64,000 nucleotides of DNA, from positions 434,001 through 498,000 of the forward strand of contig NZ_SBLB01000004.1 in the NCBI RefSeq assembly GCF_004138325.1, written 5' to 3'. Shown here one piece after another: positions 51,603 to 61,465 of this stretch; positions within the stretch are counted from its first letter, which is position 1, and each line of letters starts with the position of its first letter. The notes beneath the pieces were generated by a model. The model made no database searches. It was given only the letters and a program-made list of their open reading frames with translations, and was not told the DNA's origin. The translations under genes were made by a program, and so were the position numbers. This stretch comes from Spirosoma sordidisoli. Its GTDB lineage: Bacteria > Bacteroidota > Bacteroidia > Cytophagales > Spirosomataceae.

Positions 51603-51632
51603 TTTGGAAACCTATCGAATATACTACTTTTG
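51603..51632 (+). promoter_or_regulatory. Promoter of galE operon
   Basis: TTTG at 51603-51606 and TACTTTTG at 51625-51632 with an 18-base spacer, close to the Bacteroidota TTTG-N19-TAnnTTTG consensus. It lies about 57 bases upstream of the galE start. Confidence 0.7.
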
Positions 51633-51688: not shown

Positions 51689-52726
51689 TTGACACCTACA
51701 GGTAGGGCACCCAGAATTTTAGTGACGGGCGGAGCCGGTTTTATTGGCTCCCACACGGTCGTTTCGTTGGTCGAAGCCGGTTTCGAACCGGTTATTGTCG
51801 ACAACTTCTCCAACTCCCAGCAATCGGCTCTCGATGGCCTGCGCGCCATCCTGAACCGCGACGTGACCTGCTATTCGGTCGACTGTAACGACCGGGCGGC
51901 TATGACCGAGATCTTCGAGAAAGAAGAGCTCCGCGGAGTCATTCACTTTGCGGCCTATAAAGCGGTTGGCGAGTCGGTTCAGCAGCCGCTGAAGTACTAC
52001 CGCAACAACCTCGACTCGCTGCTGCTGCTGCTCGAACTGATGCCGGCCTACGGCGTGCAGAACCTGGTTTTTTCATCGTCCTGCACCGTTTATGGCCAGC
52101 CCGAGCAGCTTCCGGTAACCGAAGAAACACCCCGGCTCCCGGCTCAGTCGCCCTACGGCAACACCAAAGCCATCAGCGAAGATATCATCCGCGATACCGT
52201 ACAGGCTCAGGTGCCCATCCGGGCGCTGGCGCTGCGGTATTTCAACCCCGTTGGGGCCCACCCCTCAGCCCAGATCGGCGAACTGCCGCTGGGCGTTCCG
52301 GCTAACCTGGTTCCGTTCATTACGCAAACGGCCGCCGGTATACGCCAGAGCCTGACCGTATACGGCAGCGATTACAACACCCCCGACGGCACCTGTATCC
52401 GCGATTATATACACGTGATGGATCTGGCCGAAGCCCACGTTCAGGCGCTCAAAAAACTCAACGAAGCCGAAAACGAGGCCAGCTACGACGTGATCAACAT
52501 CGGCACCGGCCGGGGCGAAACGGTCCTGACCATTATCAATACCTTTGAGCAGGAAACAGGCGTGAAGCTCAACTACACCATGGGACCTCGCCGGGCAGGC
52601 GATGTAGAACAGGTGTACGCCGATGTAACGAAAGCCCGTCGCGAACTGGGCTGGACCGCCCGGCGAACCCTGGCCGAGTCGCTCCGCGATGCCTGGCGCT
52701 GGCAGGAAAAACTCAGTTTATCTTAG
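51689..52726 (+). CDS. galE: UDP-glucose 4-epimerase, TTG start
   Basis: 345 aa. NAD-binding ILVTGGAGFIGSHTVV at the N-terminus, the catalytic SSSCTVYG and SPYGNTKAISE (Tyr-x3-Lys), RYFNPVGAHPSAQIGE and GTCIRDYIHVMDLAEAH are all typical of GalE. There is no ATG in frame ahead of the NAD-binding motif: the frame closes upstream at 51656-51658, and the best start is TTG at 51689. It interconverts UDP-glucose and UDP-galactose for surface glycans. First gene of the nucleotide-sugar operon. Confidence 0.95.
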   Translation: MTPTGRAPRILVTGGAGFIGSHTVVSLVEAGFEPVIVDNFSNSQQSALDGLRAILNRDVTCYSVDCNDRAAMTEIFEKEELRGVIHFAAYKAVGESVQQPLKYYRNNLDSLLLLLELMPAYGVQNLVFSSSCTVYGQPEQLPVTEETPRLPAQSPYGNTKAISEDIIRDTVQAQVPIRALALRYFNPVGAHPSAQIGELPLGVPANLVPFITQTAAGIRQSLTVYGSDYNTPDGTCIRDYIHVMDLAEAHVQALKKLNEAENEASYDVINIGTGRGETVLTIINTFEQETGVKLNYTMGPRRAGDVEQVYADVTKARRELGWTARRTLAESLRDAWRWQEKLSLS

Positions 52727-52807: not shown

Positions 52808-53869
52808 ATGAAACTTCTTATCACCGGCGGGGCCGGCTTTATCGGATCACACGTAGTCCGGCTGTTTGTTACCAAATACCCGGAGTATCAGATTTATAAC
52901 CTCGACAAACTGACCTACGCCGGTAATCTGGCTAACCTGTCAGACATCGAACACGCCCCGAACTACACCTTCATCAAAGGCGATATTACCGACGCCAAAT
53001 TTATCGACGACATGTTCGCCGAGCTGGCGTTCGATGGCGTCATCCACCTCGCAGCAGAGTCGCACGTAGACCGGTCCATTACCGACCCCATGTCGTTTGT
53101 CATGACCAACGTGGTGGGCACAGTAAACCTGCTCAACGCGGCCAAAAACACCTGGGCAGCCGGGGCGTCGGGTTTCGACGGCAAGCGGTTCTACCACGTC
53201 TCGACCGATGAGGTATACGGTTCGCTGCACAACCCCGACGAGTTCTTCACCGAAGAAACCGCCTACGACCCGCAGTCGCCCTATTCGGCTTCCAAGGCCG
53301 CTTCGGATCACTTCGTTCGCGCTTATGGCAACACCTATAAGCTGCCGGTTGTGCTCAGCAACTGCTCCAACAACTACGGTCCCAATCATTTTCCGGAGAA
53401 GCTGATTCCGCTCATGATTCACAACATCCAGACCAACAAACCGCTGCCGGTTTACGGCAAAGGCGAGAACGTTCGGGACTGGCTGTTTGTAGTTGATCAC
53501 GCCCGCGCTATCGATGCCGTATTTCATAACGGCCGCCTGGGCGAGACCTACAACATCGGCGGGTTCAACGAGTGGAAAAACATTGACCTCGTTCACCTGC
53601 TGTGTACCATCATGGACCGTAAGCTGGGTCGGCCCGAAGGTACCTCGGCTCAGCTGATCACCTACGTTACCGACCGCGCCGGACACGACCTCCGCTACGC
53701 CATCGACGCCCATAAGATTATGAACGAGCTGGGCTGGCAGCCATCACTCCAGTTCGAGCAGGGCCTCGAAAAAACGGTCGACTGGTTCCTCGAAAACCAG
53801 GAGTGGCTCGACAACGTAACGTCGGGTAACTACCAGAAGTATTACGAAAGCATGTACACTAACCGATAA
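52808..53869 (+). CDS. rfbB: dTDP-glucose 4,6-dehydratase
   Basis: 353 aa from the ATG at 52808. NAD-binding ITGGAGFIGSHVVRLF, HLAAESHVDRSI, catalytic YHVSTDEVYGSL (Thr-Asp-Glu) and SPYSASKAASDH (Tyr-x3-Lys), YGPNHFPEKLIPLMI and RDWLFVVDHARAI are diagnostic. It makes dTDP-4-keto-6-deoxyglucose, precursor of rhamnose and other deoxysugars. Its usual partner rfbA follows only after a 1.8-kb two-gene insert; rfbC and rfbD are not in the window. Confidence 0.96.
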   Translation: MKLLITGGAGFIGSHVVRLFVTKYPEYQIYNLDKLTYAGNLANLSDIEHAPNYTFIKGDITDAKFIDDMFAELAFDGVIHLAAESHVDRSITDPMSFVMTNVVGTVNLLNAAKNTWAAGASGFDGKRFYHVSTDEVYGSLHNPDEFFTEETAYDPQSPYSASKAASDHFVRAYGNTYKLPVVLSNCSNNYGPNHFPEKLIPLMIHNIQTNKPLPVYGKGENVRDWLFVVDHARAIDAVFHNGRLGETYNIGGFNEWKNIDLVHLLCTIMDRKLGRPEGTSAQLITYVTDRAGHDLRYAIDAHKIMNELGWQPSLQFEQGLEKTVDWFLENQEWLDNVTSGNYQKYYESMYTNR

Positions 53870-53874
53870 TTCTA

Positions 53875-54966
53875 ATGAAGCTGGTCAGTTTTTCGTGCAA
53901 GGCCTATGGTCACTCGATCCAAGAAATCAATCTACAGCAGGTTAATCTGCTTGTAGGGCGGAATGGAAGTGGCAAATCATACGCGCTGCGCTCTATTGAA
54001 AGATTGGCCGATGTCATTTCAGAAAAAAGCTGGCATCCCGTTGTTCGGGAATGGAAAGCTGAATTTGAAGATGAAGCAGGTAAACAGTTAGCTTATTCTT
54101 TTGGGTGGACTGAAAAGGGGGTTTCTATTCAATACGAACAACTAGTATGGGACGGCATAATTCTAATTGAGCGTAATCAGGATGGCTGCTTTGTCTATTC
54201 TAGTGTTACAGATAAAAGAGAAGAAGTCACTCCGCCCAAAACAAAACTGGTTATCAACGTTCGCCGGGACACAAAACTTCATCCAGAATTTGAGAAGTTG
54301 ATTCACTGGGCCGAATCCTGTTACAGTTTCCGCTTCGGCACGATTGTTCCAGAGGTAGAGGATATTGACAGGAAGTTGTCAAAGTTTAACTTCTCGCCTT
54401 TAGATCAAACAAAAACCGATTATACGCCAGGCGATTTGTTTAATGATTTAGAGCATAAGCAGCAGTGGAAGATTCTTGATTTGATGCAAGACTTCGGTTA
54501 CCGTTTTGAGGTTCTGAAATCTAGAGGTACTACTGATCCGAAAAGTGTTGAGTATCGTGAAAAAGGCTGGGCTCGACCATATGACATCACGCTCACCTCA
54601 CAAGGTACCTTCAGGGTATTTATCCTTCTGGCTTATTTCCTTCGTCTAGTCAACACAGCAAAGCCACAACTCATTCTGATCGATGATCTTGGCGAAGGGC
54701 TTGACTATAGCAGGTCCGTTAAACTAGGTAAGTTCCTCTTTGATGAATGTCAAAAAGCCGGAGTGCAGTTGATTGCCACCTCCAACGACGGTTTTTTAAT
54801 GGACGCCATTCCAATTGAATACTGGAATGTCTTACGGCGAACAGGAACTGAAATTACCGCTTTGAACGCTGAAAATCATCTTGAACTCTTCCAGAATTTC
54901 GCTTACACCGGGCTTTCTAACTTTGACTTTTTCTCATCAGATTATATTGATACCCACCTGAAATGA
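53875..54966 (+). CDS. ABC/SMC-like AAA ATPase of a putative defence pair
   Basis: 363 aa. Walker A GRNGSGKS at 28-35, a degenerate signature (TLTSQGTFR, about 239-247), Walker B LILIDDLGEGLD (about 266-277) and a switch motif IATSND. This is the AAA_21/OLD-like ATPase layout, without a fused nuclease. It starts 5 bases after the rfbB stop and overlaps the next gene by 4 bases (ATGA). A+T-richer than its flanks, so probably acquired. Such ATPases pair with TOPRIM-like partners in PARIS, Gabija-like and OLD-like anti-phage systems. Confidence 0.85.
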   Translation: MKLVSFSCKAYGHSIQEINLQQVNLLVGRNGSGKSYALRSIERLADVISEKSWHPVVREWKAEFEDEAGKQLAYSFGWTEKGVSIQYEQLVWDGIILIERNQDGCFVYSSVTDKREEVTPPKTKLVINVRRDTKLHPEFEKLIHWAESCYSFRFGTIVPEVEDIDRKLSKFNFSPLDQTKTDYTPGDLFNDLEHKQQWKILDLMQDFGYRFEVLKSRGTTDPKSVEYREKGWARPYDITLTSQGTFRVFILLAYFLRLVNTAKPQLILIDDLGEGLDYSRSVKLGKFLFDECQKAGVQLIATSNDGFLMDAIPIEYWNVLRRTGTEITALNAENHLELFQNFAYTGLSNFDFFSSDYIDTHLK

Positions 54967-55664
54967 GAAAAATTGCAGTTTTTGTAGAAGGACAGGCTGA
55001 ATTAATTTTTGTTCGGGAGTTTTTGTTAAAGTGGTTCAACTACAACATTGATTTGGAGTGCCGTAATTTATTTACTGATGGTCAGTCTCATCAGGCAGAA
55101 TTCGATTTTCCAATCTCCACTGCACCTATCCATGTTCAGGTTATCAATGTAGGCGGAGACGGGAATGTTTTATCAAGGATGCTCGGACGAGAGCAACTTT
55201 TACACAACGCCGGTTACGAAACAATCATCGGCTTAAGAGACATGTATTCTGAGGAGTACAAAAAAAAGGTAAAAAACCAAACTGTTGATCCAGCAATAAG
55301 CGAGCTGTTCAAAAACGGTGCTACCGTTACAATTTACCAAAGGGCAAAGCAACCTGACTCAATGAAGCTTTGCTTCGCTATTATGGAAATTGAAGCATGG
55401 TGGCTTGGTATACCCACCGTTTGGCATAGTTTCGATTCTACAATTCAGAACCAGTTTGCTGATGCTTTTACCAGGCCGGAATCCGTTTTTCACCCAGCCA
55501 CTCTAATAAATAAGCTTCTCCAATCAAGACACCAATCTTATAAGAAATATAAGGGTGAGGTTGAGTCGATTGTAAGTCGTATTTCTTTGCAAGACTACAT
55601 CGATCTGCGAGACAGTCAGCGATGTCCCTCTTTTTGTGAGTTCGTTGATCACATTAACACTTAA
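54963..55664 (+). CDS. TOPRIM-like / DUF4276-type partner of the ATPase
   Basis: 233 aa. N-terminus KIAVFVEGQAELIFVREFLLKWF has the TOPRIM-like VEG...E pattern with the conserved glutamate; TIIGLRDMYSEEY follows at the place of the acidic motif; KLCFAIMEIEAWWLGI is the block typical of the DUF4276/RloB-like group. Overlaps the ATPase gene by 4 bases, implying a stoichiometric pair. In related systems this protein is the toxic nuclease effector released by the ATPase. Exact family needs profile searching. Confidence 0.8.
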   Translation: MRKIAVFVEGQAELIFVREFLLKWFNYNIDLECRNLFTDGQSHQAEFDFPISTAPIHVQVINVGGDGNVLSRMLGREQLLHNAGYETIIGLRDMYSEEYKKKVKNQTVDPAISELFKNGATVTIYQRAKQPDSMKLCFAIMEIEAWWLGIPTVWHSFDSTIQNQFADAFTRPESVFHPATLINKLLQSRHQSYKKYKGEVESIVSRISLQDYIDLRDSQRCPSFCEFVDHINT

Positions 55665-55702
55665 CAACACTTGAACATAATCAATAATTAAACTACCTTA
55701 AA

Positions 55703-56563
55703 ATGAAAGGTATTATCCTTGCCGGTGGGTCAGGTACCCGACTCCATCCGCTTACCCTGGCCGTCAGTAAACAGCTTATGCCTGTTTATGACAAGCCTAT
55801 GATTTATTACCCCCTCTCGATTCTGATGCTGGCGGGTATTCGCGATATCCTGATCATTTCGACGCCCCATGACCTGCCTCACTTCGAAAAGTTGCTGGGC
55901 GACGGCGCCCGGCTGGGATGCCGGTTCAGCTATGCCGTACAGCCCAGTCCCGATGGACTGGCGCAGGCGTTCATCATTGGCGAAGAGTTTATCGGCGCTG
56001 ACAAGGTAGCGCTGGTACTGGGCGACAATATCTTTTACGGGTCGGGCCTGTCCAAGCTCCTCCAGGCCAACAACGATCCTGACGGGGGCGTGGTGTACGC
56101 GTATCAGGTTCACGATCCCGAGCGTTACGGCGTCGTTGAGTTCGATGATGATTTCAACGTCTTGTCGATCGAAGAGAAGCCGGAGAGTCCCAAGTCGAAC
56201 TATGCCGTGCCAGGTTTGTACTTCTACGACAACGAGGTCGTTACCATTGCCAAGAACATAAAACCATCGCCCCGGGGCGAGCTGGAAATTACCGACGTAA
56301 ACCGGGTTTACCTGGAGCGCGGCAAACTCAAAGTAGGCGTACTGGACCGCGGAACGGCCTGGCTCGATACCGGTACGTTCGAGTCGCTGATTCAGGCGGG
56401 TCAGTTTGTTCACGTCATCGAAGAGCGCCAGGGCCTGAAAATTGGCTGTCCTGAGGAGATTGCCTACCGGATGAAGTTTATCACGGCCGAGCAACTGACC
56501 GAAATTGCCAAACCACTCGTCAAGAGCGGCTACGGGCAATATCTGCTGAACCTGCTGAAATAA
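55703..56563 (+). CDS. rfbA: Glucose-1-phosphate thymidylyltransferase
   Basis: 286 aa. Nucleotidyltransferase signature [59 protein letters not shown] and [14 protein letters not shown] are all family-specific. Makes dTDP-glucose, substrate of rfbB. Tail [10 protein letters not shown] is normal. It restarts the nucleotide-sugar operon 38 bases after the TOPRIM-like gene and is followed by a terminator. Confidence 0.96.
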
Positions 56564-61213: not shown

Positions 61214-61288
61214 GCCGCGCCATCCCGATGCCACTGATACGTATTTGAGACCCATTAGGGCGACAGGTCCATAGCAGTAGTAGTCTAA

Positions 61289-61357
61289 TAAAGAAACCCC
61301 GTTGGGGCGACATGGTAGCTCAAGCTTACACTATGTCGCCCCAACGGGGTTTCTTTA
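61289..61357. terminator. 25-bp perfect inverted repeat, bidirectional terminator
   Basis: 61289-61313 is an exact inverted copy of 61333-61357, with a 19-base loop. The stem runs TAAAGAAACCCCG..., giving A-tract/T-tract ends on both strands. It separates the converging fad and dedA units. Confidence 0.85.
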
Positions 61358-61465
61358 TACGGGTCCTCACGATTATCCCCCGGTACAGTTAATACCCCTT
61401 TACAAAAGATCCCTCCTACCGTCGGGATGACAAAAAACCACTCCCGCAGCCTGTCCCGGCCATAG

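Follow-up and report, generated by a model that had tools for sequence, protein, structure and literature searches.

In a 64,000-nucleotide stretch of the Spirosoma sordidisoli genome (contig NZ_SBLB01000004.1, positions 434,001 to 498,000; hereafter the window), two adjoining genes encoding an ABC-type ATPase and a TOPRIM-like protein of the DUF4276 family lie between the surface-sugar genes rfbB and rfbA. We hold with moderate confidence that they form a horizontally acquired, compact pair of the OLD/PARIS type, in which the ATPase would serve as sensor and the TOPRIM protein as nuclease, probably co-transcribed with the glycan operon. Folds, family and context suggest a role in defence. The ATPase-TOPRIM type of defence is already known; the novelty is the sequence variant, a HEC-01/DUF4276 branch, and its home in glycan operons. 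This reading draws directly on the gene pair, the predicted folds, the invariant acidic and ATP-binding residues, the presence and absence of the pair across the genus and its tight packing in the operon.

In the proposed mechanism, the ABC ATPase would sense an infection cue and the separate TOPRIM (DUF4276) nuclease, until then kept silent by the ATPase, would be released or activated. Its target would be nucleic acid, either tRNA, which AriB cuts, or DNA, the OLD substrate, and the cleavage would kill or arrest the infected cell. Contact between the two proteins, nuclease activity, substrate, trigger and anti-phage effect are all inferred. The pair is a small, testable member of the poorly described candidate family HEC-01/DUF4276.

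Insertion of the gene pair between rfbB and rfbA

The open reading frames (ORFs) for galE, rfbB, the ATPase, the DUF4276 protein and rfbA form one forward-strand series in that order. The two ORFs of the pair share four bases and are separated from their flanks by 5 bp on the rfbB side and 38 bp on the rfbA side. Their joint G+C content is 0.419, compared with 0.547 for the whole window; by gene it is 0.428 for the ATPase and 0.406 for DUF4276 against 0.55-0.59 for galE, rfbB and rfbA, and at third codon positions 0.43 and 0.40 against 0.68-0.74. An earlier reading made from the letters alone (the sequence-only reading) had described two such ORFs, of 363 and 233 amino acids with a 4-base overlap and A+T-richer than their flanks, inserted as a cassette in the operon. 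All of this agrees with what we found.

Insertion is supported by the absence of the pair from 34 of 34 measured congeners together with its low G+C content. The rfbB and rfbA genes lie on one contig in 35 of the 36 genus genomes (the remaining genome has no rfbB match), and the gap between them is 28-123 bp in 34 congeners against 1836 bp here; the pair is therefore not common to the sisters, and its composition is not native. One of the 36 genus genomes and eight of the 222 family genomes hold a DUF4276 relative. Alignment with the nearest sister (G190) by blastn gives about 95% identity in the flanks across some 17 kb, reaching both junctions. Measured in 150-base steps, identity dips to 65% (48037), 80% (56749) and 87% (52661), never at the junctions, and a short unaligned gap (61233-61456) also lies away from them. 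The 67-bp spacer of the sister is missing here, the insert running from directly after the rfbB stop to 2 bases before the rfbA start. The pair is probably horizontally acquired. Arrival of the whole rfb block by a single transfer is not supported, because the flanks are so close to the sister and the rfbB and rfbA proteins are 99% identical to its own. We found no insertion mechanism; the adjoining genes are glycan genes, and no search of the window was aimed at mobile-element genes.

By eye, several rfbB-rfbA spacers of congeners (L014, L034 and others) resemble long inverted repeats, GAATGAGTGAATG-like, that vary by species; in this genome the insert stands in place of that spacer. Outside the genus, among the matches listed and read by eye (at least 41 gaps), the rfbB-rfbA gap is 2-177 bp in 38 of 41, with three exceptions: 1024 bp with an rmlD-like gene in G039, as in its sisters; 290 bp in G128; and 586 bp in G114, from another genus of the family. 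The G114 gap holds an unrelated 147-amino-acid gene (L182, 4561-5004) with a G+C content of 0.46, lower than its flanks, and is thus a case of other cargo at the same junction.

The two genes behave as a unit. A set of 84,980 species genomes yielded 285 relatives, of which the 80 most like the window ATPase were used. A DUF4276 gene directly follows the ATPase gene in 72 of the 80, with an overlap of exactly 4 bases in 39, so the pairing goes beyond chance; three of the eight without a directly following DUF4276 gene end at a contig edge. Both genes are present in seven of eight viral-contig loci from IMG/VR, and the pair therefore travels on phage-like DNA. A tblastn search of 50,697 phage records gave no match to the DUF4276 protein. 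Two plasmids matched, one of Bacteroides finegoldii with the pair in a polysaccharide operon and one of Paraburkholderia with the pair elsewhere. By contig context, L107, L123, L134 and L141 have an ATPase without a DUF4276 partner though the contig continues; L123 and L134 adjoin glycan genes.

The ATPase matches Pfam AAA_21 at 5.9e-12. Its Walker A (GRNGSGKS) and Walker B (LILIDD) motifs, recognized by the sequence-only reading, were located at the positions given in the table; invariant residues in 53 sequences are G33, K34, G244, R247, D270, D271 and E274-D277, among others. The signature motif had been called degenerate and is actually the usual form of the family, with consensus LSQGMFR, in which G244 and R247 are invariant and S242 nearly so. 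The partner matches DUF4276 at 3.2e-7 (31.2 bits, cut-off 30.2) and carries the VEG...E motif that had been pointed out, as VEGQAE. Across 54 sequences E9, G10, E13, D93, E142, E144, W146, P178 and K195 are invariant. In the predicted model the acidic groups sit at or just past the ends of strands 2-8, 87-93 and 134-139, which by position we take to be the arrangement expected of a TOPRIM site.

Promoters of the Bacteroidota type follow the motif TTTG-N18-TAnnTTTG. The window has one strict match on the forward strand, upstream of galE. The sister keeps it with one base different (L100:6592), its only forward-strand match in 19 kb; Arcicella rosea has three forward-strand matches in 19 kb, one of them 5' of galE (L091:5654), and Arcicella sp. 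L092 has no strict match in its 10.8 kb. No terminator-like sites were found on the forward strand from rfbB to rfbA. The pair is thus arranged such that it is probably transcribed with galE, rfbB and rfbA from the galE promoter.

Table. Features of the rfb region in the window (positions count from the first base of the window)
Feature	Positions	Strand	Basis or remark
Bacteroidota-type promoter match, TTTG-N18-TAnnTTTG	51603..51632	+	ends 56 bp 5' of the listed galE start; candidate promoter of the operon
galE-type epimerase (name presumed from similarity)	51689..52726	+	Pfam GDP_Man_Dehyd/Epimerase
rfbB, dTDP-glucose 4,6-dehydratase type	52808..53869	+	Pfam; present in 35/36 genus genomes
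Inserted stretch	53870..55701	+	blastn against the sister, which has a 67-bp spacer at that place
ABC-type ATPase, 363 amino acids, AAA_21	53875..54966	+	
Walker A GRNGSGKS	53956..53979	+	ATPase residues 28-35; G33, K34 invariant in 53 sequences
ABC signature, family form L(T/S)SQG	54592..54606	+	alignment of relatives
Walker B LILIDD	54670..54687	+	ATPase residues 266-271; D270, D271 invariant in 53 sequences
ATGA, 4-base overlap of the pair	54963..54966	+	same overlap length in 39/80 relatives
DUF4276 TOPRIM-like protein, 233 amino acids	54963..55664	+	
First acidic motif VEGQAE (E9, E13)	54984..55001	+	residues 8-13; E9, G10, E13 invariant in 54 sequences
Second acidic residue D93	55239..55241	+	invariant in 54 sequences
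Third acidic pair E142, E144	55386..55394	+	invariant in 54 sequences
rfbA, glucose-1-phosphate thymidylyltransferase type	55703..56563	+	Pfam NTP_transferase

Relation to known ATPase-TOPRIM systems

AlphaFold2 models of the pair match PARIS AriA/AriB, OLD, GajA and PtuA, and in structure comparison the DUF4276 model falls in a group with OLD, PARIS and Gabija. The earlier proposal of an ATPase-plus-TOPRIM defence-type pair is thus borne out, as a predicted function, by fold and family matches. HEC-01 (HEC-01A plus HEC-01B) consists of the same two component kinds. PADLOC was used here as model matches, apart from its own cut-offs and system rules. The window ATPase matches HEC-01A at 3.7e-13, and 17 of 17 homologues match PDLC04175 at 1e-4; the assignment is unspecific for the ATPase because AriA and AbiLi models outscore it. 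The partner matches HEC-01B models only (seven at E<=1, the best at 5.3e-7), and all 17 DUF4276 homologues match PDLC04188 and PDLC04205 (HEC-01B) at 0.01; stray matches to other models, mad4, PDC-M38B and PDC-M49B among them, involve one or two of these 17 each. Given such weak scores, the pair would be a divergent relative of HEC-01. HEC stands for Hma-embedded candidate, and one 2026 paper attributes antiviral activity to several HECs including HEC-06, stating that most putative defence candidates still await testing (PMC12988326). Our literature search, with subscription papers and preprints mostly outside its scope, found nothing on HEC-01 activity or on the pair in glycan operons, and the word DUF4276 in no paper covered.

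PARIS has in common with the pair an AriB-like fold, present in the predicted model of the window partner. It differs in partner family, which is DUF4276 here, and in size, the solved chains being numbered to 444 and 308. AriB models are absent from the partner's seven PADLOC matches (E<=1) and from the 23 families matched by the 17 homologues (E<=0.01). Membership in PARIS was accordingly rejected on partner family and not on fold: with DUF4276 as partner, the pair is by sequence not PARIS and is a divergent HEC-01-like pair. The sequence-only reading had offered a distinct subtype next to PARIS; the distinctness stands, and the kinship moves to HEC-01.

OLD class 1 and Gabija GajA likewise have an ABC ATPase and a TOPRIM domain of the OLD fold, in one polypeptide there (PMC10568477) and in two ORFs here. 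A UvrD-like GajB was not found beside the pair, whose neighbours are rfbB and rfbA. The window ATPase matches the AbiLi model of AbiL (AbiLi/AbiLii) at 4e-17. Models of AbiLii and RloB, which we take to be the partner proteins of AbiLi and RloA, did not match the window partner, whose matches were to DUF4276, weakly to OLD-like_TOPRIM, and to HEC-01B models only. Searches of profiles against solved structures gave two chance-level matches for A4 (E 0.52 and 0.92) and none at 1e-5 for A3.

Several observations weigh against a defence pair borne on the glycan operon. For the DUF4276 model Foldseek itself returns weak E-values, 1.8e-3 at best, and the HEC-01 matches of the window pair are weak too (5.3e-7 for the partner). 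The ATPase model is about as similar to SMC/Rad50 heads as to AriA. Many relatives have housekeeping genes for neighbours (gyrB, argS, catalase families). Sigma-70-like sites occur on the forward strand in rfbB (53583), in the DUF4276 gene (55199) and just 5' of rfbA (55654, 55661), with 10 in the region against 5.3 expected, though the sigma-70 consensus may not suit Bacteroidota; a single relaxed Bacteroidota-type match lies inside the DUF4276 gene. Private promoters are therefore possible.

Glycan operons as a candidate home of the pair

Two Arcicella genomes carry the pair in a like place, with the order galE-rfbB-pair-rfbA in A. rosea (L120, genome G040; gaps of 2 and 7 bp) and galE-rfbB-pair-rmlD in Arcicella sp. 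(L124, genome G044; gaps of 5 and 3 bp). These two pairs and that of the window form one clade in a tree of 46 concatenated pairs (ultrafast bootstrap, UFBoot, 96). Identity to the window pair is 36-37% for the ATPase and 48-49% for DUF4276, and 82-87% for rfbB. A. rosea has a second rfbBA copy without the pair. Outside this clade, the L105 pair has rfbB-rfbA on one side and, by eye, an accC-like gene on the other, and on the B. finegoldii plasmid (L206) the annotated operon reads UpxY antiterminator, export protein, tyrosine kinase, pair, sugar transporter and glycosyltransferases. By eye, the L128 and L138 pairs lie inside polysaccharide genes, and L123, L131 and L134 adjoin them.

Glycan-like ORFs were defined by phmmer (E<1e-10) against 34 E. 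coli K-12 glycan proteins, a yardstick without the further polysaccharide genes of two E. coli regions (galF, gmm, wbbL, wzb, wzyE and acetyltransferases among others); the best match of the sister's rfbA copy among them is E. coli rfbA. The controls were 96 of 97 stretches from 70 of the 80 host genomes, mostly contig starts and uneven in length (L234, whose contig is as long as that of a pair, had been set aside). Around the 80 pairs 34 of 957 ORFs are glycan-like, compared with 7 of 1069 in the controls (locus permutation p 0.0014), and at least two such ORFs occur in 9/80 loci against 1/96 controls. The rate peaks within 1.5 kb of the pair (17 of 238 ORFs). Six of 80 pairs have a glycan-like gene next to them, in the same direction and no more than 300 bp away; among control ORFs of at least 200 amino acids the figure is 8 of 773 (Fisher p 0.0009). 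Restricting the count to stretches of at least 15 kb gives 21/665 against 6/897, and clustering at 50% ATPase identity leaves at least two glycan-like ORFs in 5 of 36 clusters against 1 of 96 controls. Only the closer, Bacteroidota-rich half of the relatives (L101-L144) carries the signal, with 31/559 ORFs against 6/863 in controls from nearly the same hosts; L145-L180 show no excess (3/398). Host genomes hold 0-9 members of the sugar-transferase family PF02397 (mean about 2.6), and insertion next to a member should accordingly be rare.

Eleven further chromosomal loci yielded two lone glycan-like ORFs (L316; L095), no locus with two and none adjacent to a pair; that of L095 is an rfbA-like gene about 4 kb away on the strand of the pair. 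They come from twelve loci not listed by name among the 80 (L310-L319, L095 and L097), L310 being the same place as L143 (841,157-base contig) and so not counted. The twelve are themselves a choice, with G042, G046, the second copies in G044 and G392, and G341 left out. The eight viral loci contain no glycan-like ORF. The earlier suggestion of a link with the glycan operon is thus upheld by the Arcicella cases, the polysaccharide loci and the enrichment, and only for the closer relatives; it failed in the 11 further loci. Some of the closer relatives are over-represented in surface-sugar clusters, so that accident alone may not account for the placement.

Glycan loci and tight operons may simply take up foreign DNA often, the pair being ordinary defence cargo, and we give this explanation a little under an even chance. 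The unrelated low-G+C gene between rfbB and rfbA in G114 fits it, as does the variety of gene kinds that the relatives adjoin. Against it, occupation of one site in two genera by pairs of a single clade hints at something beyond random landing; our control stretches are not a test of insertion hotspots.

Alternatively, surface-glycan synthesis may govern the expression, trigger or benefit of the pair and so keep it in glycan operons, for instance as a back-up while the receptor glycan is made, switched along with phase-variable capsules. The rfbB-adjacent clade of three, the independent placement of L105 5' of rfbB-rfbA, the pairs inside or next to polysaccharide loci (L123, L128, L138, L206), the enrichment and the adjacency speak for such a dependence, but 74 of the 80 relatives have no adjacent glycan-like gene, L145-L180, the 11 further loci and the viral loci lack the signal, and the supporting cases are partly related by ancestry. 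We consider it unlikely. The pair raises the question whether an intracellular abortive defence could be genetically coupled to phage-receptor synthesis. In that case gut Bacteroidota would switch their immunity together with their capsules, and more hidden defence genes should be sought in glycan loci. The broader proposal, that a DUF4276 branch of two-gene ATPase-TOPRIM immunity settles again and again in the surface-glycan operons of Bacteroidota, where a cassette without its own promoter would provide a suicide-type defence made in step with phage-bound glycans, is rather doubtful; were it true, defence in capsule operons would turn on and off with the capsule.

The shared place and single clade across two genera would also suit an ancient resident of the rfb operon, lost almost everywhere in the family and not recently gained. 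The low identity of the pairs beside that of rfbB indicates old divergence or fast change, and the flanks show no clear donor tract. Such a history requires all 34 congeners measured to have lost the pair, whose composition is still foreign, and strikes us as improbable. That the pair has no part in immunity and is instead an ATPase/nuclease for regulation or repair, working on host DNA or RNA, as the Rad50/SMC-like heads and the many relatives without defence neighbours might suggest, is very improbable given its patchy distribution, low G+C, occurrence on viral contigs and plasmids and the structural grouping of DUF4276 with OLD, PARIS and Gabija.

Neighbours of the relatives and further observations

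The horizontally acquired defence pair that we favour has relatives whose company of defence genes is modest. We scanned 137 nearest-neighbour proteins (142 less four very large ones and one broken-ATPase piece) and 129 control proteins (142 drawn from 181, less 13 very large). In the top 25 PADLOC models listed, the neighbours matched mad3 and AriA models with four members each and PtuA, AriAB, HEC-06 and AbiLi with one each; the controls matched helicase, reverse-transcriptase, Cas1, AriB and other models with one member each. Among Pfam families, AAA_21 (six) and Epimerase (five) were found in the neighbours, and neither is among the top 25 families listed for the controls.

Some loci hold other genes of note. 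By eye, two different relatives (L126, L140) lie 110 and 166 bp past an ileS-like gene. In Parabacteroides faecalis (L138, 12346-13945) the glycan-locus pair is soon followed by a second ATPase and a small protein of the VEG type, by eye possibly one more ATPase-TOPRIM pair. At L134 (11558-13545), fcl- and gmd-like genes are followed by the partnerless ATPase and then by an ATPase and a gene whose end is HNH-like, an arrangement that by eye resembles Septu; one neighbour among all the loci scanned matched the PtuA model. Three genomes of the Arcicella genus group (L181, 7724-8320; L185, 6931-7530; L188, 2914-3510) have, directly after rfbA, a low-G+C P-loop protein of about 198 amino acids, zeta-toxin-like by eye and perhaps a further passenger of the same operon.
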